Of a DNA stretch of 64,000 nt, positions 2,436 through 22,925 are shown in pieces. The translations under genes and the position numbers were made by a program. Within the stretch, counting starts at the first letter, position 1; each line of letters starts with the position of its first letter. This stretch comes from Gluconobacter albidus (GTDB lineage Bacteria > Pseudomonadota > Alphaproteobacteria > Acetobacterales > Acetobacteraceae). The stretch covers positions 186,001 to 250,000 of the forward strand of contig NZ_BEWL01000002.1 of assembly GCF_002723915.1 (NCBI RefSeq), given 5' to 3'. Under the pieces are notes generated by a model, which saw nothing but the letters and a program-made list of their open reading frames with translations, had not been told where the DNA came from and did not search any database.

Positions 2436-3338
2436 CTATGCGGCTGACTTCGTCAGGCATTCCATGGCAAGTCGGCAGGCTGCGAGATCCCACGCGGCAC
2501 AGCCGACGCTTTTGAAAAAGACCGGCTGGTCCTGCTCAGGCTTCTCCTCAAGGAAATCCGCCAGAGCCCACACCTCTGACCAATTTTTCCCGGCCTGAAG
2601 AATGTCCCCCGCTTCGTGGGGTGCGCCAATGGGATCATCGACAACGCAAAGACTTTTCAGGACGATCCCCGGTCCGATCTCGATCATGTCCGGTTTGTAT
2701 GCACCGACACCGATCACCAGTGTTTCCGGCGCAGCCTCCTGATCGAAAAGGATTTCCCGGCTGCTGGTGACGGAAATGACCGCATCGTAACGGTCTGCTG
2801 TCTCTCTCTCGGCCTGAATGCGAAGAGCGGGGTAAGGGCCCTCGATCAGGGACTGGATACGCTGCGTGTTCCGCCCACGGATCGTCACGGAAAGGCCCGG
2901 ATAGAGCTCATTCAGTGCTTCAAGATGAACCCGTGCCTGTGCGCCGGTCCCGATGAGCAGAACGTGTTGAAGGCGTTTTGGTCGAAAGCAGGACAGTCCA
3001 AGCATCGAGATCGCGGCGGTGCGCCGCTCGGTCGCGGTAATGCCGTTCATGGCGAACAAAAAACGTCCGTTTTGCCCATCCAGACACGTCACCTGTCCCT
3101 GAAGGGTCGGTAGAGCGCTATTTCCGGGAAAAATGGTCAACAGCTTGTGTGCGATCAGGTCCGGCCCACAGGCCACCATCGACAGCACCGTTCCGGTGCG
3201 GTCGGCGGTCGGCACGACAAGGCGTTCCGGACAGACGATGGTCCCGTCCCGATATTCCGTAATGGCTGTTCTCAGCGCTGCGATCAGGGGCTGAAAGGGC
3301 AGGGCCTGTCGTGTTTCATCGGCAGAGAGAAGGCGCAT
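2436..3338 (-). CDS. Ornithine cyclodeaminase/mu-crystallin family ketimine reductase
   Basis: A 300-aa NAD(P)-dependent protein. The dinucleotide-binding loop VLLIGTGAQARVHLEAL lies near residues 125-141, and the family's substrate-side sequence RRTAAISMLGLSCF lies just before it. The family includes ornithine cyclodeaminase, alanine dehydrogenase and delta-1-pyrroline/piperideine-2-carboxylate reductases. The short length and the D-amino-acid transaminase and RidA next door favour reduction of a cyclic ketimine made when a D-amino acid is deaminated; this is inference. ATG follows GGAG closely. It is the last gene of a minus-strand trio (transaminase, RidA, this gene). Confidence 0.85.
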   Translation of the reverse strand: MRLLSADETRQALPFQPLIAALRTAITEYRDGTIVCPERLVVPTADRTGTVLSMVACGPDLIAHKLLTIFPGNSALPTLQGQVTCLDGQNGRFLFAMNGITATERRTAAISMLGLSCFRPKRLQHVLLIGTGAQARVHLEALNELYPGLSVTIRGRNTQRIQSLIEGPYPALRIQAERETADRYDAVISVTSSREILFDQEAAPETLVIGVGAYKPDMIEIGPGIVLKSLCVVDDPIGAPHEAGDILQAGKNWSEVWALADFLEEKPEQDQPVFFKSVGCAAWDLAACRLAMECLTKSAA

Positions 3339-3378
3339 GGAGGCTCCGGGACAGTGTCAGGGGAAGGGGAGTTTTGCC

Positions 3379-3732
3379 TCAGGAGCCGAGGCGTGCAACC
3401 AGCGTCATTTCGACTTTCCAGGCGGGGTCCACCAGACGGGCTTCCACCGTGGCCCGTGCAGGCTTGGCGTCCTGATCGAGCCAGGCGTCCCACGCTCTGT
3501 TCATCGCGCCGATCTCGGAAATATCCGTCAGGAAGATCTGGACGGAGACGATGTCGCTTTTCCGGCTTCCGGCCTGTGCCAGAAGGCTGTCAATCTGATG
3601 GAGGACGTTGGCGGTCTGGCCTTCGGTGTCCAAGGTTTCGTCGGTGGTCACCTGACCCGCAAAGTGGATCATGCCATTGCAGATTACAGCGCCGCTGAGG
3701 CGCTCGTGAGGATCCAGACGTGTGATCGACAT
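3379..3732 (-). CDS. RidA/YjgF-family enamine/imine deaminase
   Basis: A 117-aa single-domain protein of typical Rid length. The C-terminal half carries the family's substrate-binding Arg in ARATVEARLVDP and the Glu in KVEMTLVARL. Rid proteins hydrolyse reactive 2-aminoacrylate or imine intermediates released by PLP enzymes and FAD oxidases. It lies between a D-amino-acid transaminase and a ketimine reductase on the same strand (33-bp and 40-bp gaps), so clean-up of an imine intermediate in the same pathway is likely. The Rid subfamily (RidA or Rid1-7) is not resolved. An AAGGA sequence lies about 10 nt before the ATG. Confidence 0.88.
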   Translation of the reverse strand: MSITRLDPHERLSGAVICNGMIHFAGQVTTDETLDTEGQTANVLHQIDSLLAQAGSRKSDIVSVQIFLTDISEIGAMNRAWDAWLDQDAKPARATVEARLVDPAWKVEMTLVARLGS

Positions 3733-3765
3733 TGCTGATGGTCCTTGTTCTTGGGGAAGGAAATT

Positions 3766-4641
3766 TCAGGAAATGATTGCGGGCAGCTGCATGACGTCCT
3801 GCAGATAGGCATCATAAAGACTGCGGAAAACCGGACCGGGAGCACCGCCGCCGACACTCACACCATCCATTTCGATAACGGGGACGGCGATCGTCGAGGC
3901 ACTCGTGTAAAAGACTTCCGTCGCGCACAGAACGTCCGCCTTTGAAAACGGCCGCTCCACGATCGTCAGACCGTGACGTTTGGCAATTTCGATGATCGTG
4001 CGTCGCGTAATGCCTGGAAGAATATCCTGAGAAAGATTGCGCGTAATCAGCTCGTTGCTCGCACTGACGATGAATGCGGTCGAGGAAGCGCCTTCGGTGA
4101 TCTCGTCGCCATCCAGCATCCAGGCCTCGTTCACCCCGGCCTGTTTCACGGCGTGCTTGGCCATGACCTGCGCCAGAAGCGATGTGGACTTGATGTCCCG
4201 TCGCGCCCAGCGCAGATCGGGCACGGTAATGATCCGCCCCCCGGTTTTGATGACCGGATTGGACTGGACCCGGTTGAACTGCGGGAACATCACCACGGTG
4301 GGCTCAAGACCGTCCTTGTACTGGAAAGCCCGTTCGGCCACACCGCGGCTGACCTGAATATAGATCAGCCCGTTGCGCAGTTCATTGCGGCGCATGAGTT
4401 CGGTCTCAACGCCAGTCCATTTCTCGATGCTGAACGGGTTGGCAATGCCGATCTCTGCCAGTGAGCGGTCCAGACGCCGGAGATGGTGGTCGTTATCCAC
4501 CAGACGCCCCTCAATGACGGCCGTCACCTCATAGACGCCATCCCCGAAAAGAAACCCGCGATCCATGACAGGAATGACGGCCTCCCGAAGAGGAACGAAT
4601 TTACCCATAACGAACCCGATACGGTTGTCGACAGTCGACAC
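3766..4641 (-). CDS. dat: D-amino-acid transaminase (class IV PLP aminotransferase)
   Basis: A 291-aa fold-type IV aminotransferase. The family signature DRGFLFGDGVYEV lies near residues 27-39, the PLP lysine is in DIKSTSLLAQ, and the phosphate-side motif TEGASSTAFIV follows. These match D-alanine-type transaminases better than branched-chain enzymes (a separate ilvE lies at 52856). It converts a D-amino acid and 2-oxoglutarate or pyruvate into the 2-oxo acid. The start is GTG at 4641 with GGAGG just upstream. It is transcribed away from the hydantoinase and leads the trio dat-ridA-reductase. A 15-bp palindrome touches the start codon. It could serve D-amino-acid catabolism rather than cell-wall D-Glu synthesis; context favours catabolism. 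Confidence 0.88.
   Translation of the reverse strand: MSTVDNRIGFVMGKFVPLREAVIPVMDRGFLFGDGVYEVTAVIEGRLVDNDHHLRRLDRSLAEIGIANPFSIEKWTGVETELMRRNELRNGLIYIQVSRGVAERAFQYKDGLEPTVVMFPQFNRVQSNPVIKTGGRIITVPDLRWARRDIKSTSLLAQVMAKHAVKQAGVNEAWMLDGDEITEGASSTAFIVSASNELITRNLSQDILPGITRRTIIEIAKRHGLTIVERPFSKADVLCATEVFYTSASTIAVPVIEMDGVSVGGGAPGPVFRSLYDAYLQDVMQLPAIIS
4626..4640. repeat. 15-bp perfect palindrome abutting the dat start codon
   Basis: TGTCGACAGTCGACA is its own reverse complement around a central A. It covers the first codons of the transaminase gene, beside its GTG start. It may be an operator, an mRNA hairpin or chance overlap of two GTCGAC hexamers. Confidence 0.5.
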
Positions 4642-4843
4642 GATCCCTCCACTGCAAGCCGGTCTGTTGAGGTCTTGTATAAAAGAAGTTTCCCGCGCTG
4701 GCGTATCGGATATCCGGACTGGCTATTCATGGGCGTGATAGTGACCCACAACTGCCGATAGAGCGGACACTGGACGCACTCATGCCTGACATGGAGTATT
4801 TTTCGACCCGATATCATTCCCAGAGCAGGCAAGGACGACCCTC

Positions 4844-6160
4844 ATGGACCATTTCGATCTCATTCTGAAAAACGGGACTGTCGTCACCTCGTCGCAGGAA
4901 CGCGCCGATATTGGCTGCCGTGACGGAAAGATCGTCGCCATCGGAGATCTCGGTCGCGCAGAGGCAACCGAAGTCATCGACTGTACTGGTCTGCACGTCC
5001 TGCCCGGCATCATCGACCCGCATGTCCATCTGCGCGAACCGGGCAATGCCAGCGTCGAGACCATCCATGACGGAACGAGGGGCGCCATTCTTGGCGGCGT
5101 GACGGCGGTTTTCGACATGCCGAATACGGCGGAATCAGTGGTTTCCCAAGAGGTTCTAGACCGCAAGCGCGCCATGATTCCGGGTAAGAGCTGGTGTGAT
5201 ATCGGCCTCTATGTCGGGGCGACGAAGAAGAACATCGACACGCTGGATATACTCGAAGTCCAGGACAATGTCTGCGCGATCAAGGTCTTTGCTGGATCAT
5301 CGACGGGTGATCTTCTTGTGGAGGACGATGCCAGCCTTGAAGCCCTGATGCGGAACGGAACCCGCCGCGTCTGCTACCATTCCGAGGACGAAACGCGCCT
5401 TCAGGAACGCAAAAAACTCTTTTCCGTCGGTCAGCCCTATCGCGCGCATATGGAATGGCGCGACGTCGAATGTGCGTTTCTCGGCACACGCCGCCTGATG
5501 TCGCTGGCCCGCAAAACGGGGCGCAAGACGCATATCCTGCATGTCTCCACCGCGGAAGAACTCGCCTATATGCGCGATTTCAAGGATATCGGAACGGTCG
5601 AGGTTCTGGTCAATCACCTTACGCAGGTCGGACCGGATGTTTACGATCGCCTTGGGGGTTACGCGATCATGAACCCGCCCATCCGTGACCAGCGCCACTA
5701 CGATGCGTCCTGGGCGGCGGTCAATGCGGGAGATGTGGATTGCATCGGCTCCGATCATGCACCCCATTCCCGTGAGGCCAAGGAACGCCCTTGGCCGCTG
5801 ACTTCTGCGGGTCTCACGGGCGTGCAGACGCTTGTCCCCATCATGCTTGATCATGTGAACGCCGGTCGTCTGCCGCTTGAGCGGATGGTATCGCTGATGT
5901 CCGCTGGTCCCGCGCGCGTCTATGGCGCGGTCGGGAAGGGGCATATCGCTCCGGGCTATGACGCGGACTTCACGATCGTCGATCTCGCGCATCGCCAGAC
6001 AATCGAGGAAAGCTGGATTACGTCTCCCTGTGGCTGGACACCGTTTGCAGGGATGTCCTGCACCGGCTGGCCTGTCATGACGGTCATTCGCGGTCAGGCC
6101 GTCATGCGCGAGGACGAAATCATCGGATCGCCCCGCGGTGCGGTCGTGTCCTTTTCCTGA
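4844..6160 (+). CDS. Dihydroorotase/hydantoinase-family cyclic amidohydrolase
   Basis: A 438-aa metal-dependent ring-opening hydrolase. The HxH pair is H60/H62 in DPHVHLREPG, the candidate carbamylated lysine is K147 in AIKVFAGSSTGDLL, further ligands lie in CYHSED and ILHVST, and the catalytic Asp is in GSDHAPHSREAKERPW. The Arg after HVHL and the Asn in MPNT are the carboxylate-binding pair of true dihydroorotases, so dihydroorotate-like substrates (5-carboxymethylhydantoin, dihydroorotate) are possible. The neighbours encode N-carbamoyl-D-amino-acid hydrolase and hydantoin racemase, which favour a hydantoinase role. AAGGA lies about 10 nt before ATG. It is divergent from dat across 202 bp and tail to tail with the LysR gene (3-bp gap). 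Confidence 0.85.
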   Translation: MDHFDLILKNGTVVTSSQERADIGCRDGKIVAIGDLGRAEATEVIDCTGLHVLPGIIDPHVHLREPGNASVETIHDGTRGAILGGVTAVFDMPNTAESVVSQEVLDRKRAMIPGKSWCDIGLYVGATKKNIDTLDILEVQDNVCAIKVFAGSSTGDLLVEDDASLEALMRNGTRRVCYHSEDETRLQERKKLFSVGQPYRAHMEWRDVECAFLGTRRLMSLARKTGRKTHILHVSTAEELAYMRDFKDIGTVEVLVNHLTQVGPDVYDRLGGYAIMNPPIRDQRHYDASWAAVNAGDVDCIGSDHAPHSREAKERPWPLTSAGLTGVQTLVPIMLDHVNAGRLPLERMVSLMSAGPARVYGAVGKGHIAPGYDADFTIVDLAHRQTIEESWITSPCGWTPFAGMSCTGWPVMTVIRGQAVMREDEIIGSPRGAVVSFS

Positions 6161-6163
6161 TGC

Positions 6164-7057
6164 TCAAGGCTCTTTGGGAAGATCGGTCACAACCTCGCGG
6201 ACGCGCTCCAGAAAAAAGCGTCCAAGTCGTGAAAGCGAGCGGTTCTCGGACCATATCGCATACGCGGCGACGGGAATGGCCGGTGCAAAGGGGCGACTGA
6301 CGAGTTTGAAGCGCCCCGACGAGGCCGTCAGCGGGTCCACAATTGCGACCCCCGCATTGGCTTCCGCAAGCGTACAGGCTGTGTTGGCGTAGCGGACTTC
6401 GGCAGAGAAGGTGAAACCCTCGTCTTCCTGATCGAAGGCCGCGCGTGTGGCTTCCCCGAGCTTGGTGCCGGATTCCAGGGCGATGAAATGATAGTCCCGC
6501 AGGTCCCAGGGGCGGATCTGCCGGCGTTCGCTGAGCGGATGGCCCGGCGGCATGACGCAGACCATCTCGCCGCGATACAGAACCTCCGACGCCAGCCCCG
6601 GCTTGCCGCTGAAGCCGAGCGCAAATCCCAGTTCCGCCTTGTGGCTTTCCACACTATTGACGACGCCTTCATAGCGCCGGACGTCGAAATACGTCCGGAT
6701 TTTCGGCCGAAGGGACTGCGTGCGCTGGATCGCCGTTGCCAGCATCCCGTATCCGATCGGCGGTGTGGCCACGAGCCGGAGCTGCCCGGCCCGGCTGTCC
6801 CGAAGATCCTGAATCCGGCCTTCGAGCCGTTCATGCAGATCGAAGATTGCCTCCGCGTCATCCACGATGATCGTGGCTTCAGGCGTCGGGTAAATCCGGT
6901 TGTTGACCCTCTGGAACAGGGCGAAGCCCACCTGATCCTCCATCGTGCGGATGGCATTGCTGATCGCAGGCTGCGACAGCCCCAGAACGCGCGCGGCTGC
7001 GACGGTTGTGTTGTGGCGAATGATTGCCCGGAGGATCTCGATCTGGCGGAGGTTCAT
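6164..7057 (-). CDS. LysR-family transcriptional regulator
   Basis: A 297-aa regulator. The winged-HTH is at residues 1-60 (RQIEILRAIIRHNTTVAAARVLGLSQPAIS split across positions 4-33), followed by a linker helix and a two-lobed effector domain. It is divergent from the nine-gene operon starting with the carbamoylase across a 144-bp gap that contains a TTAGC-N11-GCTAA dyad, the usual LysR T-N11-A geometry. It is therefore the likely pathway-specific, inducer-responsive activator of that operon and its own repressor. No Shine-Dalgarno sequence is evident before the ATG. The inducer is unknown; a carbamoyl- or D-amino acid intermediate is a reasonable guess. Confidence 0.9.
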   Translation of the reverse strand: MNLRQIEILRAIIRHNTTVAAARVLGLSQPAISNAIRTMEDQVGFALFQRVNNRIYPTPEATIIVDDAEAIFDLHERLEGRIQDLRDSRAGQLRLVATPPIGYGMLATAIQRTQSLRPKIRTYFDVRRYEGVVNSVESHKAELGFALGFSGKPGLASEVLYRGEMVCVMPPGHPLSERRQIRPWDLRDYHFIALESGTKLGEATRAAFDQEDEGFTFSAEVRYANTACTLAEANAGVAIVDPLTASSGRFKLVSRPFAPAIPVAAYAIWSENRSLSRLGRFFLERVREVVTDLPKEP

Positions 7058-7093
7058 CTATAAGTTTTTTGAATATGAAGGTGGGATATCTGA

Positions 7094-7114
7094 TTAGCGG
7101 GATTATTGAGCTAA
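7094..7114. promoter_or_regulatory. Candidate LysR-binding dyad
   Basis: TTAGC and GCTAA are separated by exactly 11 bp in the intergenic region between the divergent LysR gene and the carbamoylase operon. The spacing matches the T-N11-A class of LysR operators. It is the best dyad in that gap. Footprinting would be needed for proof. Confidence 0.5.
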
Positions 7115-7201
7115 CCGAAACAAAATGGCAATGAATTTGTAACCGGCCGGTGTGCGAAGGGGTTCGCCGTCGTGCTGCATATGAGACCCGGACGAGAGAA
7201 A

Positions 7202-8161
7202 ATGACTATGGGACGGATCATTCGGATTGCCGCAGCCCAGATGGGCCCGACACAGAAAGCCGATGCGCGGAGCCATACGGTCGGGCGCATGATCGCCCTT
7301 CTGGAAGAGGCAGCCTCGAAAGGTGCCACGCTCGTTGTCTATCCCGAACTCGCGTTCACGACATTCTTCCCGCGCTGGCTGCTTGAGGGAGCGGAGCTCC
7401 TGAAGGAATACGAGCGTTCCATGCCCAATCCGGAGGTCCAGCCTCTGTTCGATCGGGCCAGGGAGCTCGGCATAGGCTTCTATGTCGGCTACGCGGAGAT
7501 CACGTCCGAAGGCGAACGTTTCAATACCAGCATTATTGTTGCGTGCGACGGCACGATCCTTGGCAAGTACCGCAAGGTCCATCTGCCGGGTTCGGTCGAG
7601 CCAAGGCCCGGCGCGCAGTTCCAGCAGCTCGAGAAGCGCTACTTCGAATATGGCGATCTCGGTTTCCCGGTTTATCGTGCGGGAGCGGAATGGTCCGGTG
7701 CCCTTATCGGCATGCTGATCTGCAACGACCGCCGCTGGCCGGAAGCCTGGCGCACGCTGGCCCTGCAAGGCATGGAACTGCTCTGCGTGGGCTATAATTC
7801 CGCCGCCTACGATCCAAACGGCGGCGATACCGAAAGTGCGGATCTGCGCACCTTCCATGCGCAGCTCGTCGCGCAGGCCAATGCGTATATGAATGCCTGC
7901 TGGGCCGTAGCCGTGGCAAAAGCGGGCGACGAGGACGGGTCCTGCCTGATCGGCGGAAGCTGCATCGTTGACCCGAACGGCCAGATTGTTGCCGAGACCA
8001 CGACTCTTGCCGACGAAGTGATTGTCGCGGACTGTGATCTTGATCTCTGCCAGCAGGGCAAGACCAAGATGTTCAACTTCGAGGCACATCGGCGGCCGCA
8101 ATGGTATACCCGCATCACAAGCCAGACGGGCGTCATCTACCCGGAGGACGAAATCGGCTGA
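7202..8161 (+). CDS. N-carbamoyl-D-amino-acid hydrolase (nitrilase superfamily)
   Basis: A 319-aa carbon-nitrogen hydrolase with catalytic triad E49 (VVYPELAFTTFFPRW), K125 (GKYRKVHLPG) and C174 (LICNDRRWPEAWR). FFPRW, LEKRYFEYGDLGFPVY and ICNDRRWPEAWR are hallmarks of Agrobacterium-type D-carbamoylases, as recalled from family knowledge. The enzyme hydrolyses N-carbamoyl-D-amino acids to D-amino acid, CO2 and ammonia. The likely start is ATG at 7202 after a GA-rich stretch; an upstream ATG at 7172 would add ten residues with no support. It is the first gene of an operon reaching to 14451. It would supply the D-amino acid used by the nearby transaminase. Confidence 0.9.
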   Translation: MTMGRIIRIAAAQMGPTQKADARSHTVGRMIALLEEAASKGATLVVYPELAFTTFFPRWLLEGAELLKEYERSMPNPEVQPLFDRARELGIGFYVGYAEITSEGERFNTSIIVACDGTILGKYRKVHLPGSVEPRPGAQFQQLEKRYFEYGDLGFPVYRAGAEWSGALIGMLICNDRRWPEAWRTLALQGMELLCVGYNSAAYDPNGGDTESADLRTFHAQLVAQANAYMNACWAVAVAKAGDEDGSCLIGGSCIVDPNGQIVAETTTLADEVIVADCDLDLCQQGKTKMFNFEAHRRPQWYTRITSQTGVIYPEDEIG

Positions 8162-8973
8162 TGACGTCGACATTCCGGACACTCCTGTCTCTGACGGCCT
8201 GTCTCCTCTGGGGGCATGTGGAGGGCGCACAGGCGTCTTCCGGAGTGCTCCGGATTGCGGTTAATCCGATTTATCCACCGCTTGAATTCCGCGATCCGGT
8301 CACGGACCGCCTGACCGGTTTCGACATTGATTTCGGAAATGCCCTGGCGGCCCGCATGGGTGTGAAGGCCGAATGGGTCGAGACGGCCTTCCCTCAAATG
8401 ATCCCCTCGGTCCAGAGCGGCCGCACCGACATGATCCTCAGTGGATTTTCCGACCGTCCCGAACGCCGCGCCTTTCTGAATTTTCTGGACTATCTCAAAT
8501 CCGGCGCACAGGTCCTCGTCCTGTCACAGGGCGATGTCCGGAGCCCCGAGATGCTGTGCGGCCAAAAGGTCGCCGCCAGCCGCGCCACATCCTTCCCGTC
8601 CATGATCCGGCAGTGGAGCCACGATCACTGCGAGGCGCAGGGACATCCCGCGATGGTGTTCTACCCGTCCGAAAGCGGGGCCGACGCCCGGATACAGCTC
8701 CTTCAGGAGCGCGTCGCGGCCATGGTGCAGGGGGGCGAGACGGTCGGATATTTTATCGACATCACCCATCACGCTTTCCGCCGACTGGGAAATCCGCTGT
8801 CGAACATGCTGCTGTCGATGGCTTTTCCCAAAGGACAGACTGCGCTTGAGGCACAGGTCGCGCACGCCTTCGCCGATCTCAGGGCAGACGGGACCTACGC
8901 ACGCCTTCTCCAGCGCTGGTCCCTTCAGGACGCCGCACTTTCCGACCCGGACTCAGACGGATCAACACCATGA
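8161..8973 (+). CDS. ABC transporter substrate-binding protein, polar amino-acid type (first of two)
   Basis: A 270-aa periplasmic protein with an N-terminal signal peptide ending near GAQAS, followed by a type II periplasmic-binding fold: LRIAVNPIYPPLEF at the start, TGFDIDFGNALAARMG, and a VAASRATSF segment in the second lobe. It belongs to the HisJ/GlnH-like family. The start codon overlaps the stop of the carbamoylase gene (TGATG), so the two are translationally coupled. The permease and ATPase follow directly. It is clearly paralogous to the protein at 12960, sharing the YPPL, GF(D)-D, FVD/LDYL-SG and VAASR-TS landmarks. The ligand is presumably an N-carbamoyl-amino acid, hydantoin or amino acid. 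Confidence 0.9.
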   Translation: MTSTFRTLLSLTACLLWGHVEGAQASSGVLRIAVNPIYPPLEFRDPVTDRLTGFDIDFGNALAARMGVKAEWVETAFPQMIPSVQSGRTDMILSGFSDRPERRAFLNFLDYLKSGAQVLVLSQGDVRSPEMLCGQKVAASRATSFPSMIRQWSHDHCEAQGHPAMVFYPSESGADARIQLLQERVAAMVQGGETVGYFIDITHHAFRRLGNPLSNMLLSMAFPKGQTALEAQVAHAFADLRADGTYARLLQRWSLQDAALSDPDSDGSTP

Positions 8974-10585: not shown

Positions 10586-10621
10586 TCCTTAGGCCTGACT
10601 CTTCACACGCGGAGATACCCC

Positions 10622-14451: not shown

Positions 14452-15694
14452 TAGGTGCTCGGACACAGGCCAGCGCTCCAACCCCCGCCAGCCCCAGAAA
14501 CACCAGCATCCCATCCGCCAGCCACCAGTCCCCGAGAAGCGTAACACTCCACGACATGGCCAGCGGCACCACCGCAACGGACAGGTTCCCCAGAAACTGC
14601 GTCCACGATGACACCTGCGCCGTGGATGCCCCGCCGAACTCCTGTACGCAGGACCAGATCGAGATCTGGCCTAATCCCAGAAATGCTGCGGCGATGAGGG
14701 CGAGAGGGAGCATGGCTGTGCCGCTCGACATCATCAGGGCCACGGCCAGAAAGGCTGTCCCGCCGCCGAGCCCTGCGATTCCAAGCGGAACCCGTGCGCG
14801 CCATTGCGAAAAACCCGCGCGCAGCAGCATGTCCGACGCGACGCCGCCCAGCAGCTTCGACAGCAGAATGACAAGATAGGATGCAGAAACGTACCAGGCG
14901 ACATGGCTCATGTTCAGGTGGAATGTGTTCCTCAGGTACAGGGGGAACAGGGCCAGAAAAAATCCTTCGACGCCCATGAGACAGAAATAGGCCCCTCCGA
15001 TACTGAACAGGCGGGACAGGGCGAAGGGTTCTGTCATGCTGGCCCTGTTCTGCGGCACGGAAGGTTCTGCCGCTTTGCGGCTGTAGGCCAGAAGAATGCC
15101 GAAGAGCAGGATCCCTACTGTTCCGTAGATCGCAAAACACAGACGCCATGACAGCGATGTCATAAGAAAAACGGAAAGAGGCGCGCCCACGACGGCTCCA
15201 AGGGAGAGTGCGGCCAGCAGGATTGCGATGACGGAAGAGCGGTGAATGGAACTGAAGCGTTGCTGCACGGTGATGAGTGCGGCCGTCCAGTCCGGCGCCT
15301 GCCCGATGCCGAGGAGCGCGCGGCACAGGATCAGTTCTGCGATCGTGGTGGCAAAGGCCGTGGAAAGCAGGGCAACGGACCAGAACAGGCAGGCCAGCGC
15401 ATAGGTCCGGGCCGCGCCCAGTTGGCGGCAGACCCAGCCAGCGGGGATCTGGCAGAGGGCATAGGTAAAAGAGTATGCGGAAATGACATTGCTGATCTGC
15501 CCCAGACTGCAGCCGAGGCTGTTCTGGATCTGGGGCGCCATGACGACCATCGCCTGTTTGTCGATGGCCATCAGGAATGTCGCGGGGAGAAGAACCAGTC
15601 CGAGAATGCACCAGGGACTGTTCCAGTATCCTCTTGTCCTCAGGTCGTGGTCCAGATCGTGGCGGGCAGGCGGGAAGGCATCTGGACTCTGCAT
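14441..15694 (-). CDS. Major facilitator superfamily transporter (anion:cation symporter type)
   Basis: A 417-aa membrane protein with 12 predicted helices. The early MAIDKQAMVVMAPQIQ segment and the helix IPAGWVCRQLGAART resemble the loop 2-3 MFS motif of the ACS (anion:cation symporter) family, which carries organic anions. It is 5 bp downstream of the TonB-receptor gene on the same strand, so outer- and inner-membrane uptake steps are likely co-transcribed. Its 3' end overlaps the racemase 3' end by 11 bp (convergent). The substrate is unknown, but the context suggests a ureido or amino acid, or an oxo-acid product. Confidence 0.85.
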   Translation of the reverse strand: MQSPDAFPPARHDLDHDLRTRGYWNSPWCILGLVLLPATFLMAIDKQAMVVMAPQIQNSLGCSLGQISNVISAYSFTYALCQIPAGWVCRQLGAARTYALACLFWSVALLSTAFATTIAELILCRALLGIGQAPDWTAALITVQQRFSSIHRSSVIAILLAALSLGAVVGAPLSVFLMTSLSWRLCFAIYGTVGILLFGILLAYSRKAAEPSVPQNRASMTEPFALSRLFSIGGAYFCLMGVEGFFLALFPLYLRNTFHLNMSHVAWYVSASYLVILLSKLLGGVASDMLLRAGFSQWRARVPLGIAGLGGGTAFLAVALMMSSGTAMLPLALIAAAFLGLGQISIWSCVQEFGGASTAQVSSWTQFLGNLSVAVVPLAMSWSVTLLGDWWLADGMLVFLGLAGVGALACVRAPIRA

Positions 15695-15699
15695 CGTTG

Positions 15700-18093
15700 T
15701 TAGAAATCGGAGCTTAGGGAGAAGGCAACCGCAAAATCTCCGCCGACATAATAGGTCGGTGTCCCGGCGGCGACGGCTGTTCCGAAAATCCCCTTTGTTG
15801 CGCGGGCGTTCGTGGCGATGCCGTTCACGCCGGACAGATAGTGCTCGTCGCCGATATTCATCAGGTTGAGCTGGATCTGCGGATGCTGGGCCGGGCCGAT
15901 TTTCCTGAAGCGGTAACCGGCGGACAGGTTGGCCGTCTTGAATGCCGGAATGCTCTGGTCATTCATGAAAGTGCTGTATTGTGAATCCACGTAGTTGAAA
16001 GTGAAGTTTCCGAAGAAACGGGTGTCGTCGTAGCTCAGACCGATTGATCCGGTGAATTTGGGAGCGAGAACAGCAGCTTTTCCCTTGGTCGGCAGGTAAT
16101 CGTTTCCGACCTGGATGTTGTTGCCCATTTCGGAATGGAGATACTGGCCCGAAATATAGGGGGAGAAATGATGCCATGCAGGGAGGCTCAGTTCCGCCTG
16201 TACGCCGCGGATCGTCTGACCGCCGCCATTGACCGAGAAGGACTGCGGGCTGTTGTTGACGTAGGTGATGCTGGAAATCTGGCGGTTGGTCAGATTGTAG
16301 TTAAACGCTGCCGCCGAGAAGTTGACTGCGCCGTAATGGCGATAGCCGATTTCTTCGGAGATCGAATATTCCGGCTTGAGGTTGCTCGAATGGCTGCTGG
16401 TCTTTCTTCCCGTTGTGGCGCTGTAGATGTCGACATAGGCGCTCAGAGCGGCCGGTTCCTTGAAGGCCGTCGACGCACTGAAATAGACCTGGTCATGGGG
16501 GGTGATCCGATAGCTGACTGAAAGCTGTGGCAGCGGCTCTGCATCGTTCTTGTTAACGGCATAAGTCGGGCCGGGCATCGCGCTGGTGGCATGGCGGGAG
16601 ACCATGACTTCCTTGAACCCTACATTCAGCACGAGGCGATCGTCGAAAAATTTCATCGTATCGTTGATGAAGAGGGCGTTTGTCTGCTGGATGAGATGAC
16701 CATTATAGGTTCCGATGACCGTTCCCGAAGACGATTTGATCGGATTGCCGCCATACTCGTTCATCACGTTGCCGTTGGGTTCGACTGGTGTGTACGAAGT
16801 GTTTTCGTTGTGGTCGAAGTAATCGTACCAGTAGCCGACCTGAAGGGTATTGAATTTGTGCTTCCATGTCAGGGTTGCGTTCTGGCCACCCGCGGCCTGC
16901 GTATAGGCATCGACGTTTTCCACGGTAGCGACATTGTTGATGCTGTAGGGTAGCTGCACCGTTCCGACCGACTGGTCTCCGACGAACATCGAATTCCCGT
17001 TGACGTTTGCACCACTGTTGATGAAGCCGCGCGTATACATGATGTAAGGCGTGATCTTGAACGTCAGTTCCGGCAGAAGTTCGAACTCCGTCGGCATGGC
17101 GGCGATGACGTTCTGCCGCTGGTTGAAGCGCAGCTTGTAGTAATTGGATGTGCCGTAGGAGTATTTTCCGGCGTAGTTATAGGAAATTCCGTCCTGCTTC
17201 CACTGGCTCAGGATGGGGTTGGTGTAGACGTCCGTGCGCATCCAGTTCCAGGCGAAGAACGGGGCGATGCTGTTATGGCCCCATTCCTTCAGAAAATGGC
17301 TGTCGACATGATAACGCTTCGTGTTGCCCGATCCACGCCAGTTGTTCACTTCCGTGTGGGAAAAGGACGTGTAGTTCCGGATGCCGGTATGGCCGATTTC
17401 GCCGCTATCGAGGCGGATAAACTGTCGGTTGAGGGATTTGTTGCCACCGCTGAGGTCGATGTACCCGCCCGCCTTGTGGGAAGGCTGCCGCGCAGAAGCC
17501 CGGATCTGACCGCCCACCGAGTTGTAGACAGGAGCCTCAATATCAGGCGAACCCTGTGAAACCTCGAGATGGCTGATGTTCTCAGTATCGGACCACTCGG
17601 TTGCGAATGGTGTGTAGTAGAGGCGATCGCCTGCAGGCATGCCTTCATATGTCGTGCCCAGTTCGGTCTGGTTCAGGCCGCGGATGGAGACGTTCATACG
17701 GTCGCTGAGACCCAGGGGATCATTGGCTGCAACAACGACGCCCGGGCTCATTGCAAGAAGGGTCACCGCATTGGCTGTCGGTGACTGTTTGGCAATGTAG
17801 TCCCGGGAGACGCCGCTGACGGATTTTGCTGCGCTCTGCACGGGCATCAGACCTCCGCCCGGCGTCGTGTTCGTAGCGCCGTTGGCATCGACGGCCTGTT
17901 TGCGGACCGAGATATATTCGTCCTTGTGCGCGGGAATGGCTTTGGGAGCGGGGTGGGAAGTTTCCCGGCTGCGAGGAGCATGATGTGTAGGAGCGGGTTT
18001 TCCGGTTTTCACACTGGATGCTGCCAGCGCTGGCTGGAAGTATAGCGCACAGCCCGACAGAAGAAGGATTTTATAACCGTTTTTCGTCAGCAT
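15700..18093 (-). CDS. TonB-dependent outer-membrane receptor
   Basis: A 797-aa protein starting at ATG 18093, which begins a clear signal peptide (LLLSGCALYFQPALA). A candidate TonB box EYISVRK lies after a Pro/Lys/His-rich spacer. The plug domain (SVSGVSRDYIA, MSPGVVV, VSIRGLNQTE, NSVGGQI) is followed by a beta-barrel ending with a terminal aromatic-rich strand, FAVAFSLSSDF. TonB receptors import siderophores but also sugars, peptides and other scarce solutes. No siderophore gene or Fur box is near; the adjacent MFS gene and the island suggest uptake of an organic nitrogen compound, by inference. An ATG 60 bp further upstream has no signal-peptide logic. Confidence 0.88.
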   Translation of the reverse strand: MLTKNGYKILLLSGCALYFQPALAASSVKTGKPAPTHHAPRSRETSHPAPKAIPAHKDEYISVRKQAVDANGATNTTPGGGLMPVQSAAKSVSGVSRDYIAKQSPTANAVTLLAMSPGVVVAANDPLGLSDRMNVSIRGLNQTELGTTYEGMPAGDRLYYTPFATEWSDTENISHLEVSQGSPDIEAPVYNSVGGQIRASARQPSHKAGGYIDLSGGNKSLNRQFIRLDSGEIGHTGIRNYTSFSHTEVNNWRGSGNTKRYHVDSHFLKEWGHNSIAPFFAWNWMRTDVYTNPILSQWKQDGISYNYAGKYSYGTSNYYKLRFNQRQNVIAAMPTEFELLPELTFKITPYIMYTRGFINSGANVNGNSMFVGDQSVGTVQLPYSINNVATVENVDAYTQAAGGQNATLTWKHKFNTLQVGYWYDYFDHNENTSYTPVEPNGNVMNEYGGNPIKSSSGTVIGTYNGHLIQQTNALFINDTMKFFDDRLVLNVGFKEVMVSRHATSAMPGPTYAVNKNDAEPLPQLSVSYRITPHDQVYFSASTAFKEPAALSAYVDIYSATTGRKTSSHSSNLKPEYSISEEIGYRHYGAVNFSAAAFNYNLTNRQISSITYVNNSPQSFSVNGGGQTIRGVQAELSLPAWHHFSPYISGQYLHSEMGNNIQVGNDYLPTKGKAAVLAPKFTGSIGLSYDDTRFFGNFTFNYVDSQYSTFMNDQSIPAFKTANLSAGYRFRKIGPAQHPQIQLNLMNIGDEHYLSGVNGIATNARATKGIFGTAVAAGTPTYYVGGDFAVAFSLSSDF

Positions 18094-18193
18094 ATCGGCA
18101 GTTCCGTTCCAGCCATAAAATTTGGTGTGATACAGAAACGATAAGCGATGCAAACAGCAGAATCTTGCTCTAAATCTATCATGATAATCAGAA

Positions 18194-18222
18194 TTGGACC
18201 GGTTGGTATTTATTTTTATTAT
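18194..18222 (+). promoter_or_regulatory. Weak candidate promoter for the FAD dehydrogenase gene
   Basis: TTGGAC and TATTAT are separated by 17 bp in the AT-rich part of the 346-bp gap between the TonB-receptor start and the FAD gene. The -10 matches 5 of 6 consensus bases, the -35 only 3 of 6. Nothing else stands out in this gap apart from an AT-rich stretch; no ORF in it has a coding look. Confidence 0.25.
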
Positions 18223-18439
18223 ACCCCTTGAGGCTAGGGGAAGGCTGACTATAAGAAAGTTCCCGGTTGTAACGATCCGGGATGATTGCGTTCCAGGAAG
18301 ATGATGCGGACACGGAAGTGACAGCAGTGGGAGGCGGCCGTTTCCGTGCTGTCTTTGATATGTCAGGCCAATATCTGAGGACTCTCCCAGAAACCGGGGA
18401 TCGCATGCGGCTGAATGTCAGGTCAGGACAGGAGTGATG

Positions 18440-19852
18440 ATGGAAATGGATAACCGGATAGAGGCGATCCATGCCGGATTGCAGGCGATTGTCGGGGTGG
18501 ATCAGGTCTTCGCGGGGTCTGCAACGGAGCGCTGGTCACGGGATTGGACAGGCCAGTTCGAGGGACAGCCTCTGGCCGTTGTCCGTCCCGCAAATCGTGA
18601 TGAGGTCGCCGCGATCCTGCGTCTTGCAGGCCAGTATCATGTTCCGGTCGTTCCGATCGCCGGCAATACCGGCCTCAATGGCGGAGCTTATGGACCGGAG
18701 GCCATTCTGGTTTCCATCGAACGGATGAACAGGATCCGCGAGATCAGAAATGATGCCCGTGTGGCCATTGTCGAAGCCGGCGTCATTGTGGCAGCGCTTG
18801 ATTCCGCGGCCGCTCAGCACGGTTTGACGTTTCCGCTTGCGTTTGGAGCGGCGGGTTCTGCGATGATTGGGGGCGTGCTCTCCACCAATGCGGGGGGTGC
18901 GAATGTCCTGCGTTACGGCAACGTGCGCGATCTTTGTCTGGGGCTTGAAGTTGTGCTTCCGGACGGCTCTGTCCTTGATCTGATGACGGCCCTGAAGAAA
19001 GACAATTCCGGTTTCGATCTGCGTGATCTCATCATCGGAGCGGAAGGGCAGCTCGGGATCATTACTGCGGCCATCCTGAAACTGCATCCTCGACCTCTGT
19101 TTCATGCAACGGCGCTGGTCGCGCTTGAAGATCTGAGCGTAGCACCTGCATTGCTGAATGCTTTCCAGGATGCTTCTGGGAATGCCGTGACGGCCTATGA
19201 GTTCATGTCCCGCAGTTACGTTGCCGGATATGAGGCCCTCGTGCCGGCGGGCCGCCGGTTTTTCGATGTCTCCTATCCTGCGGTTCTTCTTGTGGAACTG
19301 GCGACTGTGCGGAACGAGGAGCTAGGGGAGATTCTGGAGACAGTTCTGGCTGATGCTCTGGAGAGGGGGATACTGGTGGATGCCGTTGTCGCCCAGAGTG
19401 ACACACAGCGTCAGGAAATGTGGGCGCTCCGGGAGGCCGCCGCAGAACTCGCCTTTCAACGCCATCCCGTCATTGATACTGATGTTGCCGTTCCGCTGGA
19501 TCGGATTCCAGACTACCTCGACCGTATTCCGGAAATCATGGCTGCAATAGATCCCGGATTTACGGACATTGCCGTCGCGCATTTTGGTGACGGAAACATC
19601 CATTATACGGTGTGGCCCTCAGGAAGTGACCCCGCAGTCGAAGCGGCCCTGCGTGCAGCCATTGATGCTCTCGCAGTGGAAATGGACGGGACATTCTCGG
19701 CAGAACATGGGATCGGTCTTTGCAAGCTGCCATCCATGGCGCGGCACAAAAACACTGTGGCTCTTGATATGATGCGGGCGATCAAGGCGGCTTTTGATCC
19801 TGGAAATATCCTGAATCCCGGCAAGACCCTGCCGGGTGTGAACGTGGGATAG
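18440..19852 (+). CDS. FAD-linked D-2-hydroxyacid dehydrogenase (GlcD/D-2-hydroxyglutarate dehydrogenase type)
   Basis: A 470-aa protein of the vanillyl-alcohol-oxidase-fold family. The PCMH FAD-binding domain is in the first half (VVPIAGNTGLNGGAYG and GGVLSTNAGGANVLRYGNVRD), and the C-terminal cap holds the metal-binding histidines in VAHFGDGNIHYTV and the SAEHGIG motif. Relatives oxidise D-lactate, glycolate or D-2-hydroxyglutarate to 2-oxo acids. Three in-frame starts lie close together after GGAG; ATG 18440 gives the best spacing. In this island it may oxidise 2-hydroxy acids that come from D-amino or nitrile substrates, which is inference. Confidence 0.88.
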   Translation: MEMDNRIEAIHAGLQAIVGVDQVFAGSATERWSRDWTGQFEGQPLAVVRPANRDEVAAILRLAGQYHVPVVPIAGNTGLNGGAYGPEAILVSIERMNRIREIRNDARVAIVEAGVIVAALDSAAAQHGLTFPLAFGAAGSAMIGGVLSTNAGGANVLRYGNVRDLCLGLEVVLPDGSVLDLMTALKKDNSGFDLRDLIIGAEGQLGIITAAILKLHPRPLFHATALVALEDLSVAPALLNAFQDASGNAVTAYEFMSRSYVAGYEALVPAGRRFFDVSYPAVLLVELATVRNEELGEILETVLADALERGILVDAVVAQSDTQRQEMWALREAAAELAFQRHPVIDTDVAVPLDRIPDYLDRIPEIMAAIDPGFTDIAVAHFGDGNIHYTVWPSGSDPAVEAALRAAIDALAVEMDGTFSAEHGIGLCKLPSMARHKNTVALDMMRAIKAAFDPGNILNPGKTLPGVNVG

Positions 19853-19869
19853 TCCGCTCTCCGGACGGG

Positions 19870-20778
19870 TTAATTTTCTGTTTTCCGAAACTGTGCGAAA
19901 GCGTCGCGGATGATCTGACGTATCCAGGGATTATCTGCCGTACGCTGCCAGAGTAACGACACAGAATATTCGCCCAGATCAATGGGCGCCGCGCAGACCG
20001 TAAGGCCCGAAACTGCAGCAATACTTCGAGCGGCGTGCACTGGTAGTGTGGCAACAGCCCGCGTCCCGGTCAGGAATGGTGGTAGTGCAGAGAAATGCGT
20101 TAAAGCCGTTTGTACCCGTCGCGACAGGCCAAGATTCTTCAGGACATGATCTACAATGCCCTCGCGGCCTGAAAACGACACCAGAAGATGTGGCAGAGCC
20201 AGATAGTCTTCGAGACGCAGTGGAAGTGTAAGGCCACAGGCGATCGGATCAAGCAGACAGGCATAACCGGACTGTCCAATCTCCTGCTGCTGTAATCCGG
20301 AACGCACGTTTGGCTGTGCAACCAGGGCAAAGTCGATTTCGCCCGCTGCGAAAAGCGCCTCGACCCGGTGCCTGTTGGCCTGCCTGAACGTTACTGAAAT
20401 ACGGGGCGCTTCCGCTGCCAGCCGCCTTGCGATCAGTGGGCCGATTGCGATCTGGAAATCGTCTGACATTCCCAAGGAAAAGTGCTGCCGGCTGGTTGCC
20501 GGATCAAATGCCGTGACGGTCGAGAACGCTGTATGGATCCGGGCCACTCCGTCCTGAAGTGGCTCTGCCATGGCAATCGCCCGAAGGGTGGGTTGCATGC
20601 CCTCACGCGTACGGACGAACAATGGATCATCTGCCGCTTCCCGCAGGCGCGCCAGAGAAGCACTGACAGCCGACTGGCTCAGGGACAATCGGTGTGCCGC
20701 TCTGGAGACGCTGCGTTCTTCCCAGAGTGCGAGAAAGGTGGTGGCCAGATTGAAATCAAGGCGTGAAATATCGACCAT
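19870..20778 (-). CDS. LysR-family transcriptional regulator
   Basis: A 302-aa regulator (start ATG 20778). The winged-HTH is near residues 7-65, with RAAHRLSLSQSAVSASLARL as the recognition region. DDPLFVRTREGM follows, which is typical of the NodD/NahR-like branch, then the effector domain. It is divergent from the nitrilase gene and convergent with the FAD dehydrogenase gene (17-bp gap). A 15-bp dyad (TTTTGA-CTA-TCAAAA) lies 5 bp upstream of its start in the shared promoter region and is the obvious operator candidate. A start 66 bp further upstream is possible but would run through that dyad. Confidence 0.9.
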   Translation of the reverse strand: MVDISRLDFNLATTFLALWEERSVSRAAHRLSLSQSAVSASLARLREAADDPLFVRTREGMQPTLRAIAMAEPLQDGVARIHTAFSTVTAFDPATSRQHFSLGMSDDFQIAIGPLIARRLAAEAPRISVTFRQANRHRVEALFAAGEIDFALVAQPNVRSGLQQQEIGQSGYACLLDPIACGLTLPLRLEDYLALPHLLVSFSGREGIVDHVLKNLGLSRRVQTALTHFSALPPFLTGTRAVATLPVHAARSIAAVSGLTVCAAPIDLGEYSVSLLWQRTADNPWIRQIIRDAFAQFRKTEN

Positions 20779-20783
20779 GGTGA

Positions 20784-20798
20784 TTTTGACTATCAAAA
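20784..20798. promoter_or_regulatory. Candidate LysR operator: 15-bp dyad
   Basis: TTTTGA and TCAAAA form perfect arms around CTA, located between the divergent LysR and nitrilase starts. The position suits autorepression of the regulator and activation of nitrilase. Confidence 0.5.
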
Positions 20799-20876
20799 CA
20801 ATCAATTTGCCCGATAATGCAGGGAAGTCCACTCTCTCCGCCATTGCAATCCACCACCTCCATAAGAGATCCGGAC

Positions 20877-21845
20877 ATGAGCCAGCGTCGCGTCGCCGTC
20901 ATTCAGGCAGGAACCAGTCTCTTCGACACCCCCCGCACACTGGATCGGATGGAAGCCCATTGCGAAGCTGCTGCGGCACAGGGCGTTGAGCTTGCAGTCT
21001 TTCCGGAGGCGTATGTCGGCGGCTATCCAAAGGGGCTAAATTTCGGCGCTGTTCTGGGCAGTCGTTTCCCGGGAGGGCGTGAGGACTATCTGCGCTACTG
21101 GAAAGCGGCAATTGATGTGCCAGGGGTAGAAACAGCGCGGATCGGCTCTTTCGCAGCGAAAATGAAGGCACATCTTGTCGTTGGTGTCATCGAGCGTGAC
21201 GGCGCCACGCTTTACTGTACGGCGCTTTTTTTCGGGCCTGACGGAAATCTTCTGGGCAAACATCGCAAGCTGATGCCGACCGGAACCGAAAGGCTGGTCT
21301 GGGGGCAGGGGGACGGTTCGACCATTCCAGTCTTCGATACGGATATCGGGCGGATCGGAGCTGCAATCTGCTGGGAAAATTATATGCCAGACCTGCGTCA
21401 GAGCATGTATGCACGGGGCATCAATCTCTGGTGCGCGCCCACGGTGGACGAGCGCGACATCTGGCAGGCTTCAATGCGGCATATTGCCTATGAAGGGCGG
21501 ACGTTTGTTCTCAGCGCCTGTCAGTACATGACGCGCGCCGACGCGCCAGAAAATTATACCTGCCATCAGGGCAATGACCCGGAGACCGTGCTCATTCGTG
21601 GCGGCAGCGTGATCGTCAGTCCGCTCGGGGAAATCATTGCCGGACCAATCTATGATCGTGAAGCCGTCCTTACGGCCGATATTGATCTGGACGACGTGAT
21701 CCGCGGCAAATACGATCTCGACGTTGCCGGCCATTATGCACGCCCTGACGTCTTCAGCCTGCGGGTTAACGATAGCCCGCAGCGTCCTGTAGTATTCTCT
21801 GAGGCAGTAAATACTTCGTCCGTTTTCAAAGAAACTTCCGAATAA
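20877..21845 (+). CDS. Nitrilase (aliphatic/arylaliphatic type)
   Basis: A 322-aa carbon-nitrogen hydrolase with catalytic E44 (VFPEAYVGGYPKG), K131 (KHRKLMPTGTERLVWG) and C165 (AAICWENYMP). The CWEN motif separates true nitrilases from the carbamoylase at 7202, which has CNDR. Nitrilases convert R-CN to the carboxylic acid and ammonia. ATG 20877 follows AAGAGAT; an ATG 60 bp upstream is less likely because it sits in the promoter region. The gene is monocistronic and divergent from its LysR regulator. With the adjacent D-2-hydroxyacid dehydrogenase it could handle 2-hydroxynitriles, which is inference. Confidence 0.9.
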   Translation: MSQRRVAVIQAGTSLFDTPRTLDRMEAHCEAAAAQGVELAVFPEAYVGGYPKGLNFGAVLGSRFPGGREDYLRYWKAAIDVPGVETARIGSFAAKMKAHLVVGVIERDGATLYCTALFFGPDGNLLGKHRKLMPTGTERLVWGQGDGSTIPVFDTDIGRIGAAICWENYMPDLRQSMYARGINLWCAPTVDERDIWQASMRHIAYEGRTFVLSACQYMTRADAPENYTCHQGNDPETVLIRGGSVIVSPLGEIIAGPIYDREAVLTADIDLDDVIRGKYDLDVAGHYARPDVFSLRVNDSPQRPVVFSEAVNTSSVFKETSE

Positions 21846-22012
21846 ATTCACCTGCCGTGCGTGATGCCGACGTAATTCAGCGGGTTACATGTCGTAAAGG
21901 CCTGAATCAGAGCCCGTATTTTCCCGATTATTTCAGGAATAACCCAACATTTTAAAAGTTGACCTGCCGCTTAATCATCTGTGAAATTTGCACAAGACTG
22001 CAATAAATCAGA

Positions 22013-22088
22013 TGGTGTCCCATAGGGGATTCGAACCCCTGTTGCCGCCGTGAGAGGGCAGTGTCCTAGGCCTCTAGACGAATGGGAC
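22013..22088 (-). tRNA. tRNA-Glu (anticodon CTC)
   Basis: The minus strand folds as a complete 76-nt cloverleaf with encoded CCA. The acceptor pairs GTCCCAT with ATGGGAC, the anticodon stem CTGCC/GGCGG holds loop CTCTCAC (anticodon CTC), and the T-arm is AGGGGTTCGAATCCCCT. It reads GAG codons. The 167 bp between the nitrilase stop and this tRNA contain nothing I recognise. Confidence 0.95.
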
Positions 22089-22092
22089 GAGG

Positions 22093-22118
22093 CGAAGGGC
22101 TTAATAGGAGGCCCTTCG
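22093..22118. repeat. 8-bp perfect inverted repeat between hinT and tRNA-Glu
   Basis: CGAAGGGC and GCCCTTCG flank a 10-nt loop. It sits downstream of hinT and just 5' of tRNA-Glu on the minus strand. It has no U-run, so it could be a weak terminator for hinT or a processing structure ahead of the tRNA. Confidence 0.4.
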
Positions 22119-22136
22119 GATCTTGGCAAGCATTAT

Positions 22137-22505: not shown

Positions 22506-22519
22506 GGTCGGGCTCCTGC

Positions 22520-22921: not shown

Positions 22922-22925
22922 GATC

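Follow-up and report, generated by a model that had tools for sequence, protein, structure and literature searches.

A probable LysR-controlled cassette of Gluconobacter albidus for the conversion of a cyclic nitrogen compound into a D-amino acid

Gluconobacter albidus carries, in a 64,000-nucleotide stretch of its 3.29 Mb genome (contig NZ_BEWL01000002.1, here C2, positions 186,001 to 250,000; the window), a dense run of genes for D-amino acid and cyclic amide metabolism together with several transporters. Do these genes form a single pathway, and if they do, which ring-shaped compound enters it and which enzyme opens the ring? A first-pass annotation had read window positions 2436–21845 as one unit in which a cyclic ureide-like compound is imported, opened, decarbamoylated and passed to D-transamination; conserved linkage and shared promoter boxes bear out the unit, but not the identity given to the ring opener. 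We consider it likely that positions 2439–19841 are a horizontally moving catabolic cassette under its own LysR regulator, which would lead a ring-shaped nitrogen compound into a D-amino acid route. On the best reading its parts mostly belong to known enzyme families, their combination is new, and the cassette is a variation on the hyu hydantoin-utilization clusters; its interest lies in its unusual ring openers and in the prospect of finding the natural substrate.

Extent, conservation and shared promoter boxes

The conserved unit of about 17.4 kb (2439–19841) spans from the end of a ketimine reductase gene to an FAD-linked D-2-hydroxyacid dehydrogenase gene and shows 85–90% nucleotide identity to four sister Gluconobacter loci. 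Nucleotide comparison of the window with these loci revealed no flank match above 200 bases, in 10–12 kb on the left for two of them and on the right for two, and in shorter flanks for the others. Since the homology covers 2439–19841 and the flanks are unmatched, the block ends after the dehydrogenase gene, and the first-pass extent has to be shortened: of the two LysR genes that it had counted, both of which exist, LysR1 belongs to the unit and LysR2 (19870–20844, minus strand) lies outside, as does a nitrilase, the two occupying 19870–21845. All open reading frames (ORFs) that it had listed are open and each family was recognised; two genes within its coordinates had gone unnamed, the dehydrogenase, which is in the unit, and the NIT4-type nitrilase, which is not.

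The gene set was sought in other Acetobacteraceae, as had been proposed, and it was found in nine loci of one type (type A): the window, four other Gluconobacter loci, L090 from a metagenome-assembled genome (MAG) named Acetobacter, and G025, G350 and G430 (L and G numbers denote loci and genomes). These cover at least four genus groups, and outside Gluconobacter the order and orientation of the genes are rearranged. That the set stays together in reordered form in other genera supports one functional unit, with the reservation that the five Gluconobacter copies are closely related and thus leave fewer independent cases.

All nine loci contain the genes of the proposed regulator LysR1 (6164–7057, minus; PF00126, PF03466), which is 71–100% identical in the other eight and is divergent from that of the N-carbamoyl-D-amino-acid hydrolase (DCase, 7202–8161, plus). 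Equally constant are an ABC importer consisting of a family 3 binding protein (SBP1, 8161–8973, plus; PF00497), a permease of the polar amino acid type (8970–9806, plus; PF00528, and TIGR01726 over its cut-off) and an ATPase (9803–10585, plus; PF00005, with the EhuA/GlnQ/TcyN models nearest, all under their cut-offs); a NodB/PuuE-fold hydrolase (NODB, 10622–11506, plus); an amidohydrolase of the deaminase/chlorohydrolase group (AMH, 11503–12960, plus; PF01979), at least 73% identical across the type-A loci; a second binding protein (SBP2, 12960–13808, plus; PF00497); an Asp/Glu/hydantoin racemase (RAC, 13753–14451, plus); and a D-amino-acid transaminase (DAAT, 3766–4641, minus). A dihydroorotase-family cyclic amidohydrolase (DHO, 4844–6160, plus) is present in eight of the nine, G430 lacking it, and a TonB-dependent receptor (TBDR, 15700–18153, minus; PF00593, PF07715) was found at 52% identity or more in eight, L090 lacking it. 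The ketimine reductase (P2CR, 2436–3338, minus; ornithine cyclodeaminase/mu-crystallin family), a RidA family imine hydrolase (3379–3732, minus) and the dehydrogenase (FADox, 18434–19852, plus), which is the last gene of the unit, occur in seven; they are missing from G350 and G430, and this absence persists over an extra 14–16 kb on each side. An MFS carrier (14441–15694, minus; PF07690) is confined to the five Gluconobacter copies among the nine.

Within the genus, AMH is 96–98% identical in Gluconobacter vitians, G. potus, G. cadivus and a Gluconobacter MAG, and judged by this marker the unit is present in 5/26 genomes. The sharp edges, the patchy distribution in the genus and the copies in other genera point to horizontal movement. 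On the right side of the unit a tRNA-Glu gene is located at 22013–22088, and the DNA at 21990–24900 was matched in all 26 genus genomes, with the main match starting no more than 24 bases from the query start in 23; in five genomes for which upstream DNA was fetched, the match starts some 30 bases or less from the tRNA gene. Synteny of the genus thus starts at or near this gene, upstream of which the DNA differs in those five genomes, and the site may be a hot spot at which gene blocks vary.

Related gene runs were also encountered on plasmids, where neighbourhoods were read for 9 of the 96 records with NODB relatives (one of them unannotated) and for 3 of the 7 with DHO relatives. A Terrarubrum flagellatum plasmid (L242) is close to the unit in gene content: a LysR gene faces a run of DCase, three binding proteins, permease, ATPase, NODB, RAC, a 'dihydroorotase' and an amidohydrolase. 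It differs from the unit in that no DAAT, RidA, P2CR or FADox is annotated in the 18.9 kb seen, and in that its DHO belongs to another branch. On a Roseomonas haemaphysalidis plasmid a LysR gene and DCase are found with permease, ATPase, binding proteins, NODB and an amidohydrolase. In Pantoea, a plasmid carries NODB and a binding protein, followed on the opposite strand by another deacetylase-family gene, an ABC importer, an amidohydrolase and a gene of the Asp/Glu racemase family, and no DCase lies within the 18.9 kb seen. RAC and a 'dihydroorotase' accompany a different amidase of the hydantoinase/carbamoylase family on a Methylobacterium radiotolerans plasmid, and a Sphingomonas plasmid with a DHO relative contains no such cluster.

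LysR proteins often bind T-N11-A dyads. The motif TAT-N11-ATA occurs ten times in the window and four times in the 17.4 kb unit, and all four unit boxes sit in its three divergent promoter regions, namely DAAT/DHO (4642–4843, boxes at 4724 and 4797), LysR1/DCase (7058–7201, box at 7059) and TBDR/FADox (18154–18433, box at 18207). Boxes in all three regions were obtained in none of 5000 dinucleotide shuffles of those regions. Across the five Gluconobacter copies, the ends of the TBDR/FADox box are kept and its centre is variable. The 20 kb of G025 (L066) hold two boxes, both in two matching regions (14/5000 shuffles), and G350 and G430 have a box beside the transaminase start. Furthermore, the 250 bases before DCase contain a box in 23 of 35 loci, five close Gluconobacter copies included, versus 1.4 expected from the loci's own box densities.

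The boxes do not all speak for this arrangement: 12 of the 35 DCase loci, including G350 and G430, have no exact upstream box, and further boxes arise by chance within genes. The next 12 kb of G025 contain one inside the TonB receptor gene, three sister Gluconobacter loci have two to four boxes outside the three regions (L089 has none there), and L090 has 15 boxes in all, a count that is uninformative as this locus is less GC-rich. When one mismatch was allowed, no clear excess was seen (24 versus 17.6 expected, with 7 of 100 shuffles as high). The shared box at three promoter regions nevertheless argues for the co-regulation that the first-pass annotation had assumed, with LysR1 as the protein that would bind it, and the catabolic unit is real, conserved and probably co-regulated.

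Enzymes of the proposed route

DCase matches the N-carbamoyl-D-amino-acid hydrolase structure 8i99 with 344 bits and the nitrilase NIT4 with 28, PF00795 is recognised, and both the catalytic Glu-Lys-Cys triad and the CNDRRW motif are intact, which makes its assignment as an N-carbamoyl-D-amino-acid hydrolase convincing on sequence grounds; no NCBIfam model was over its cut-off. The gene occupies 7202–8161, and its stop codon overlaps the SBP1 start; counted from the ATG at 7202, the catalytic residues are E49, K125 and C174, as had been numbered before (the query used for NCBIfam, PF00795 and the order-wide genome survey began at 7205, one codon past the ATG). An antisense ORF at 7103–8230 was rejected in favour of 7172/7202–8161 after comparison with G025 and because of the DCase score, and the nitrilase at 20817–21845 was rejected as a D-carbamoylase, since it scores 382 bits against NIT4 and no more than 31 bits against D-carbamoylases.

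RAC has the two expected Cys motifs, IACFSDPG and LMGCAGM, together with PF01177; it found only three matches in the Protein Data Bank (PDB), all titled putative hydantoin racemases, and no NCBIfam model over its cut-off. DAAT passes the subfamily model NF005209 (334 bits, cut-off 320) and stays under the equivalog TIGR01121 (222.8 bits, cut-off 277.45), its best PDB matches being D-amino acid aminotransferases. RidA is over the cut-off of PF01042 (95 bits) and under that of TIGR00004. P2CR (PF02423) passes NF005603, the delta-1-pyrroline-2-carboxylate reductase family (339 bits, cut-off 266), and stays under the bifunctional reductase model NF045512 (320 bits, cut-off 400). FADox (PF02913, PF01565) is nearest to PDB entry 3pm9 (313 bits), followed by a D-2-hydroxyglutarate dehydrogenase.

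From this gene content we infer the reactions and their order, the substrate and the binding of the boxes by LysR1. TBDR and the ABC importer with its two binding proteins would take up a hydantoin-type or 2-amino-imidazolin-4-one-type nitrogen heterocycle, and AMH, the proposed ring deaminase, would strip an exocyclic ring amine where one is present, so that a hydantoin remains. RAC would epimerise C5, and DHO, a recruited dihydroorotase paralogue, and/or NODB would open the ring to an N-carbamoyl-D-amino acid, from which DCase would free the D-amino acid, CO2 and ammonia. DAAT would then yield the 2-oxo acid, while RidA would hydrolyse free imines, P2CR would reduce cyclic imines from omega-amino side chains and FADox would recover a related hydroxy acid. 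Cyclic imines of this type arise from D-ornithine or D-lysine. Of the imine clean-up previously ascribed to RidA and the reductase, the part concerning the reductase needs qualification, as by its family name this enzyme may reduce cyclic imines and need not serve in clean-up.

DCase relatives (E 1e-80 or better) were found in 196/395 order genomes, which tells against reading much into the enzyme's occurrence as such; the idea that its linkage is striking through gene rarity was abandoned on this count, and it is adjacency rather than presence that carries the signal.

In PMC3546935, hyu clusters with a D-carbamoylase, a D-hydantoinase and in some cases a hydantoin racemase are described for Aminobacter DSM24754, Rhodobacter and Bradyrhizobium, and in strain DSM24755 ABC transporter genes adjoin the dihydropyrimidinase gene. 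The unit resembles these clusters, as far as they are described there, in its D-carbamoylase and cyclic amidohydrolase, and it shares the racemase with some of them. It differs in its ring opener, which would be of the dihydroorotase and/or NodB type and not a D-hydantoinase of the dihydropyrimidinase type, and beyond what those clusters are described to contain it adds AMH, the transaminase, RidA and ketimine reductase, FADox, TBDR and a LysR-type box that recurs in its promoter regions. Of the features of a hyu cluster, the unit has the carbamoylase, the racemase and the recurring boxes, and the hydantoinase activity would reside in DHO or NODB.

DHO and NODB as candidate ring openers

The enzyme that had been called hydantoinase/dihydroorotase-like is present, yet it is not a hydantoinase of the dihydropyrimidinase type: DHO stays under the cut-off of the D-hydantoinase/dihydropyrimidinase model TIGR02033 (203.6 bits, cut-off 393.25) and passes the dihydroorotase model NF006559 (664 bits, cut-off 482). 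Like the dihydroorotase PRK09060 that this model represents, it retains the tested catalytic residues (H60, H62, R64, N94, K147, H233 and N277, the last being Ser in one of eight linked DHO rows), and the motifs around three further positions are seen as well. Unlike PRK09060, it is an extra copy in a catabolic unit and belongs to a clade of its own, in which loops are altered in linked copies.

Matches to DHO were obtained in 298/299 genomes of the family and in 250/250 of the better-assembled ones, and this near-universal occurrence indicates that the housekeeping enzyme is general. The genome of the window has five clear relatives, namely the unit copy, one of 59% identity (C1:105962) and three of 29–31%, and the 59% copy is placed among the unlinked ones in a tree of 43 proteins (L134, a duplicate of L045 for the G123 gene, was removed). 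In this tree, 10 of 11 DCase-near copies group in one clade (support 95/88) together with the G071 copy, which starts 76 bases from a contig end and has no DCase in the 30 kb fetched downstream. Here near means inside the unit, adjacent to DCase (G143, G226), or at a distance of 7.5 kb (G188), 10 kb (G174) or 17 kb (G123). In G350, G226, G143, G123 and G174 the linked DHO is accompanied by one other, and in G143 the linked copy falls inside the clade and the other outside, while G430, whose unit is without DHO, has only one DHO genome-wide at the same threshold. The linkage itself is tight in G143, where LysR1 stands divergent from an adjacent DCase-DHO-RAC run, and in G226, where LysR1, RAC, DHO, DCase and pieces of a TonB receptor lie together. 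The possibility that DHO is merely a biosynthetic enzyme is weakened by the 59% host copy, the separate clade and the pattern of a linked and another copy.

Among conserved columns, linked copies differ from the others mainly at the loop after MPNT and at GSSTG. The Pro after MPNT is Glu or Asp in all eight non-redundant linked Acetobacteraceae rows, and the GSSTG loop is altered in six of the eight, the Gluconobacter and G350 rows being unaltered (neither group includes G188 or G071, and the linked one omits two Gluconobacter near-copies).

NODB is a candidate for the same step. It belongs by PF01522 and by its conserved Asp/His motifs, which have a metal role in this superfamily, to the Polysaccharide deacetylase (CE4-type) superfamily, and its PDB matches are 3rxz (168 bits), the peptidoglycan deacetylase 3qbu (66) and the PuuE allantoinase 3cl6 (60). 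PuuE opens a hydantoin ring. NODB is like PuuE in superfamily and motifs and unlike it in its neighbours and in its score, which is far under the cut-off of the PuuE model TIGR03212 (58.7 bits, cut-off 424.6). Orthologues of at least 53% identity occur in 29/299 family genomes besides that of the window, with the permease near in 17 of the 29 loci; among the 40–44% paralogues, by contrast, DCase is near in one of the six loci examined out of 32. NODB is probably a second ring opener, and DHO and NODB look like alternative or complementary enzymes for the same DCase step: in three genomes (G226, G123 and G174) a linked DHO occurs without a NODB orthologue, and in G430 NODB occurs without a linked DHO.

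Several findings weigh against this assignment of the two enzymes. With its residues retained, DHO could still use dihydroorotate; the DCase-near copy of G188 is outside the clade; and the Terrarubrum and Methylobacterium proteins form a second group (99/95) outside it, so that linked DHO copies exist in two groups, which suggests separate recruitment. For NODB, not only is the allantoinase score low, but the peptidoglycan deacetylase narrowly outranks PuuE among its PDB matches, its structure model is poor (pLDDT 50.9, six close sequences), the G143 orthologue (63%) is located elsewhere in the genome, and DCase is near NODB in only 13 of the 29 loci (10/15 and 3/14, with many loci cut by contig ends and several of the latter 14 on short contigs).

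An unlikely alternative is that DHO is nothing more than an ordinary dihydroorotase, a second copy that hitch-hikes in the unit or salvages orotate, with NODB as sole ring opener in a proper pathway of importer, AMH, RAC, NODB and DCase. The NF006559 score and the seven retained residues would fit this, as would the presence of the core without a linked DHO in G430 and of NODB with DCase and without DHO in other Acetobacteraceae. However, the host owns another copy, only 59% identical, the linked copies form a separate clade and carry the substitutions after MPNT and at GSSTG described above, and G226, G123 and G174 have a linked DHO and no NODB orthologue genome-wide (best match 34%, no match and 33%, respectively), with RAC and DCase adjacent to it in G226, about 10 kb off in G174 and about 17 kb off in G123.

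It is very unlikely that the unit degrades a D-amino acid conjugate such as a peptidoglycan fragment or an opine, with NODB as a deacetylase, DCase as a general amidase and no hydantoin involved. NODB is indeed a member of Pfam Polysacc_deac_1 with a peptidoglycan deacetylase as its second PDB match, a D-amino acid transaminase is part of the unit, and family 3 binding proteins are similar to proteins that bind amino acids and opines. On the other hand, the 344-bit match of DCase to N-carbamoyl-D-amino acid hydrolases with the CNDRRW motif and the PDB matches of RAC, all titled putative hydantoin racemases, speak against this reading, no product of the unit was recognised as a peptidoglycan enzyme in the family-model scans, and the linked DHO and AMH would be left without a role.

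Candidate substrates and neighbouring loci

Under the preferred reading, a cassette that converts a cyclic nitrogen compound by way of a D-amino acid, hints of the natural substrate come from AMH, the binding proteins and the neighbours of NODB relatives. The AlphaFold model of AMH (pLDDT 84.8) has the isocytosine deaminase 7ww2 as its best Foldseek match, and triazine hydrolases are also found. In ring deaminases of the COG0402 type an acid residue is expected in the HxxE motif; AMH has Gln241 in 10 of 11 aligned members, with Glu in the aligned 3hpa, a change that speaks against the ring deaminase proposed here (this alignment, A2, omits the near-copies L086 and L089, L098 with AMH in two frames, and the second L094 AMH, which has a stop codon). 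The Asp by which such binding proteins contact the alpha-amino group of the ligand is Gly in SBP1 of all seven type-A orthologues aligned (G350 and G430 not included) and is retained in SBP2 of the same seven loci.

In Agrobacterium and Neorhizobium, NODB relatives of about 50% identity are found with argininosuccinate lyase, an ABC importer, an MmgE/PrpD-type gene and agmatinase; the Sinorhizobium meliloti relative has the same neighbours minus agmatinase. Creatininase and arginase-family genes lie beside the Bosea relative, and an arginine-deiminase-family gene, an M20 peptidase and a TonB receptor beside that of Kozakia (64%). These neighbours, together with the AMH fold and the Gly of SBP1, favour a cyclic guanidine or its hydantoin, a hint that may serve as a lead.

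A more specific possibility, to which we give a low probability, is that the cassette serves to break down cyclic arginine derivatives, chiefly MG-H1 and G-H1, the methylglyoxal- and glyoxal-derived hydroimidazolones of arginine, from glycated food or plant protein. AMH would then release ornithine from the 2-alkylamino-imidazolinone and leave 5-methylhydantoin, a racemic hydantoin that RAC, DHO/NODB and DCase would convert into D-alanine, and DAAT would produce pyruvate. MG-H1 has a free alpha-amino group, so that SBP2 rather than SBP1 would be needed. Argininosuccinate anhydride is a second candidate, which would fit a carboxylate-binding site in DHO. Among the literature matches listed, with subscription papers mostly beyond coverage, no title or abstract start dealt with this cassette, with a dihydroorotase-family hydantoinase beside a D-carbamoylase, or with bacterial MG-H1 breakdown via a hydantoin.

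Being compact and transferable, under LysR control and equipped with importers, such a cassette would offer a direct path to its inducer, and hence to the natural substrate. Two unusual enzymes, a dihydroorotase paralogue and one of the NodB type, are also suggested as ring openers in the D-amino acid hydantoinase process, and genes automatically named 'dihydroorotase' or 'polysaccharide deacetylase' may function as neither.

It is extremely unlikely that the nitrilase (20817–21845, plus; 382 bits to NIT4) and LysR2 serve the same pathway by turning a nitrile or cyanohydrin into a hydroxy acid and, via FADox, into an oxo acid, for although a NIT4-type nitrilase lies near FADox and nitrilases can produce 2-hydroxy acids, sister homology ends at 19841, neither gene was found in the fetched sister-locus flanks or in any type-A locus other than the window (1/9), and FADox, by contrast, is present in seven of the nine. 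The start of the nitrilase ORF (20817) overlaps the start of the divergent LysR2 gene.

DCase also occurs in a second arrangement, DCase-RAC beside two ABC ATPases (L224, L225, L226, L230, L231 and L239), which spans three Gluconobacter and three other Acetobacteraceae genomes. No NODB was found in the stretches read, DHO lies about 10 kb away in G174 and about 17 kb in G123, and all six loci have a TAT-N11-ATA box in the 250 bases before DCase. At L229 (G367), DCase and LysR1 are neighbours and share the locus with a PGA_cap/MslH-type gene, a distant transaminase relative, an M20 enzyme of the acetylornithine-deacetylase type and a DctA-type carrier, which would make it another D-amino acid locus.

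To the left of the unit, window positions 180–2341 have 46.5% G+C, compared with about 61% for 22000–64000, and encode a PPK2-type polyphosphate kinase and a CitMHS/ArsB-type transporter; this segment is probably foreign. On the right, a single ORF at 23681–25048 (minus strand) joins a GNAT acetyltransferase domain to a histidine-biosynthesis (HisA/HisF family) domain, and is either a true fusion or a frame that joins two genes.

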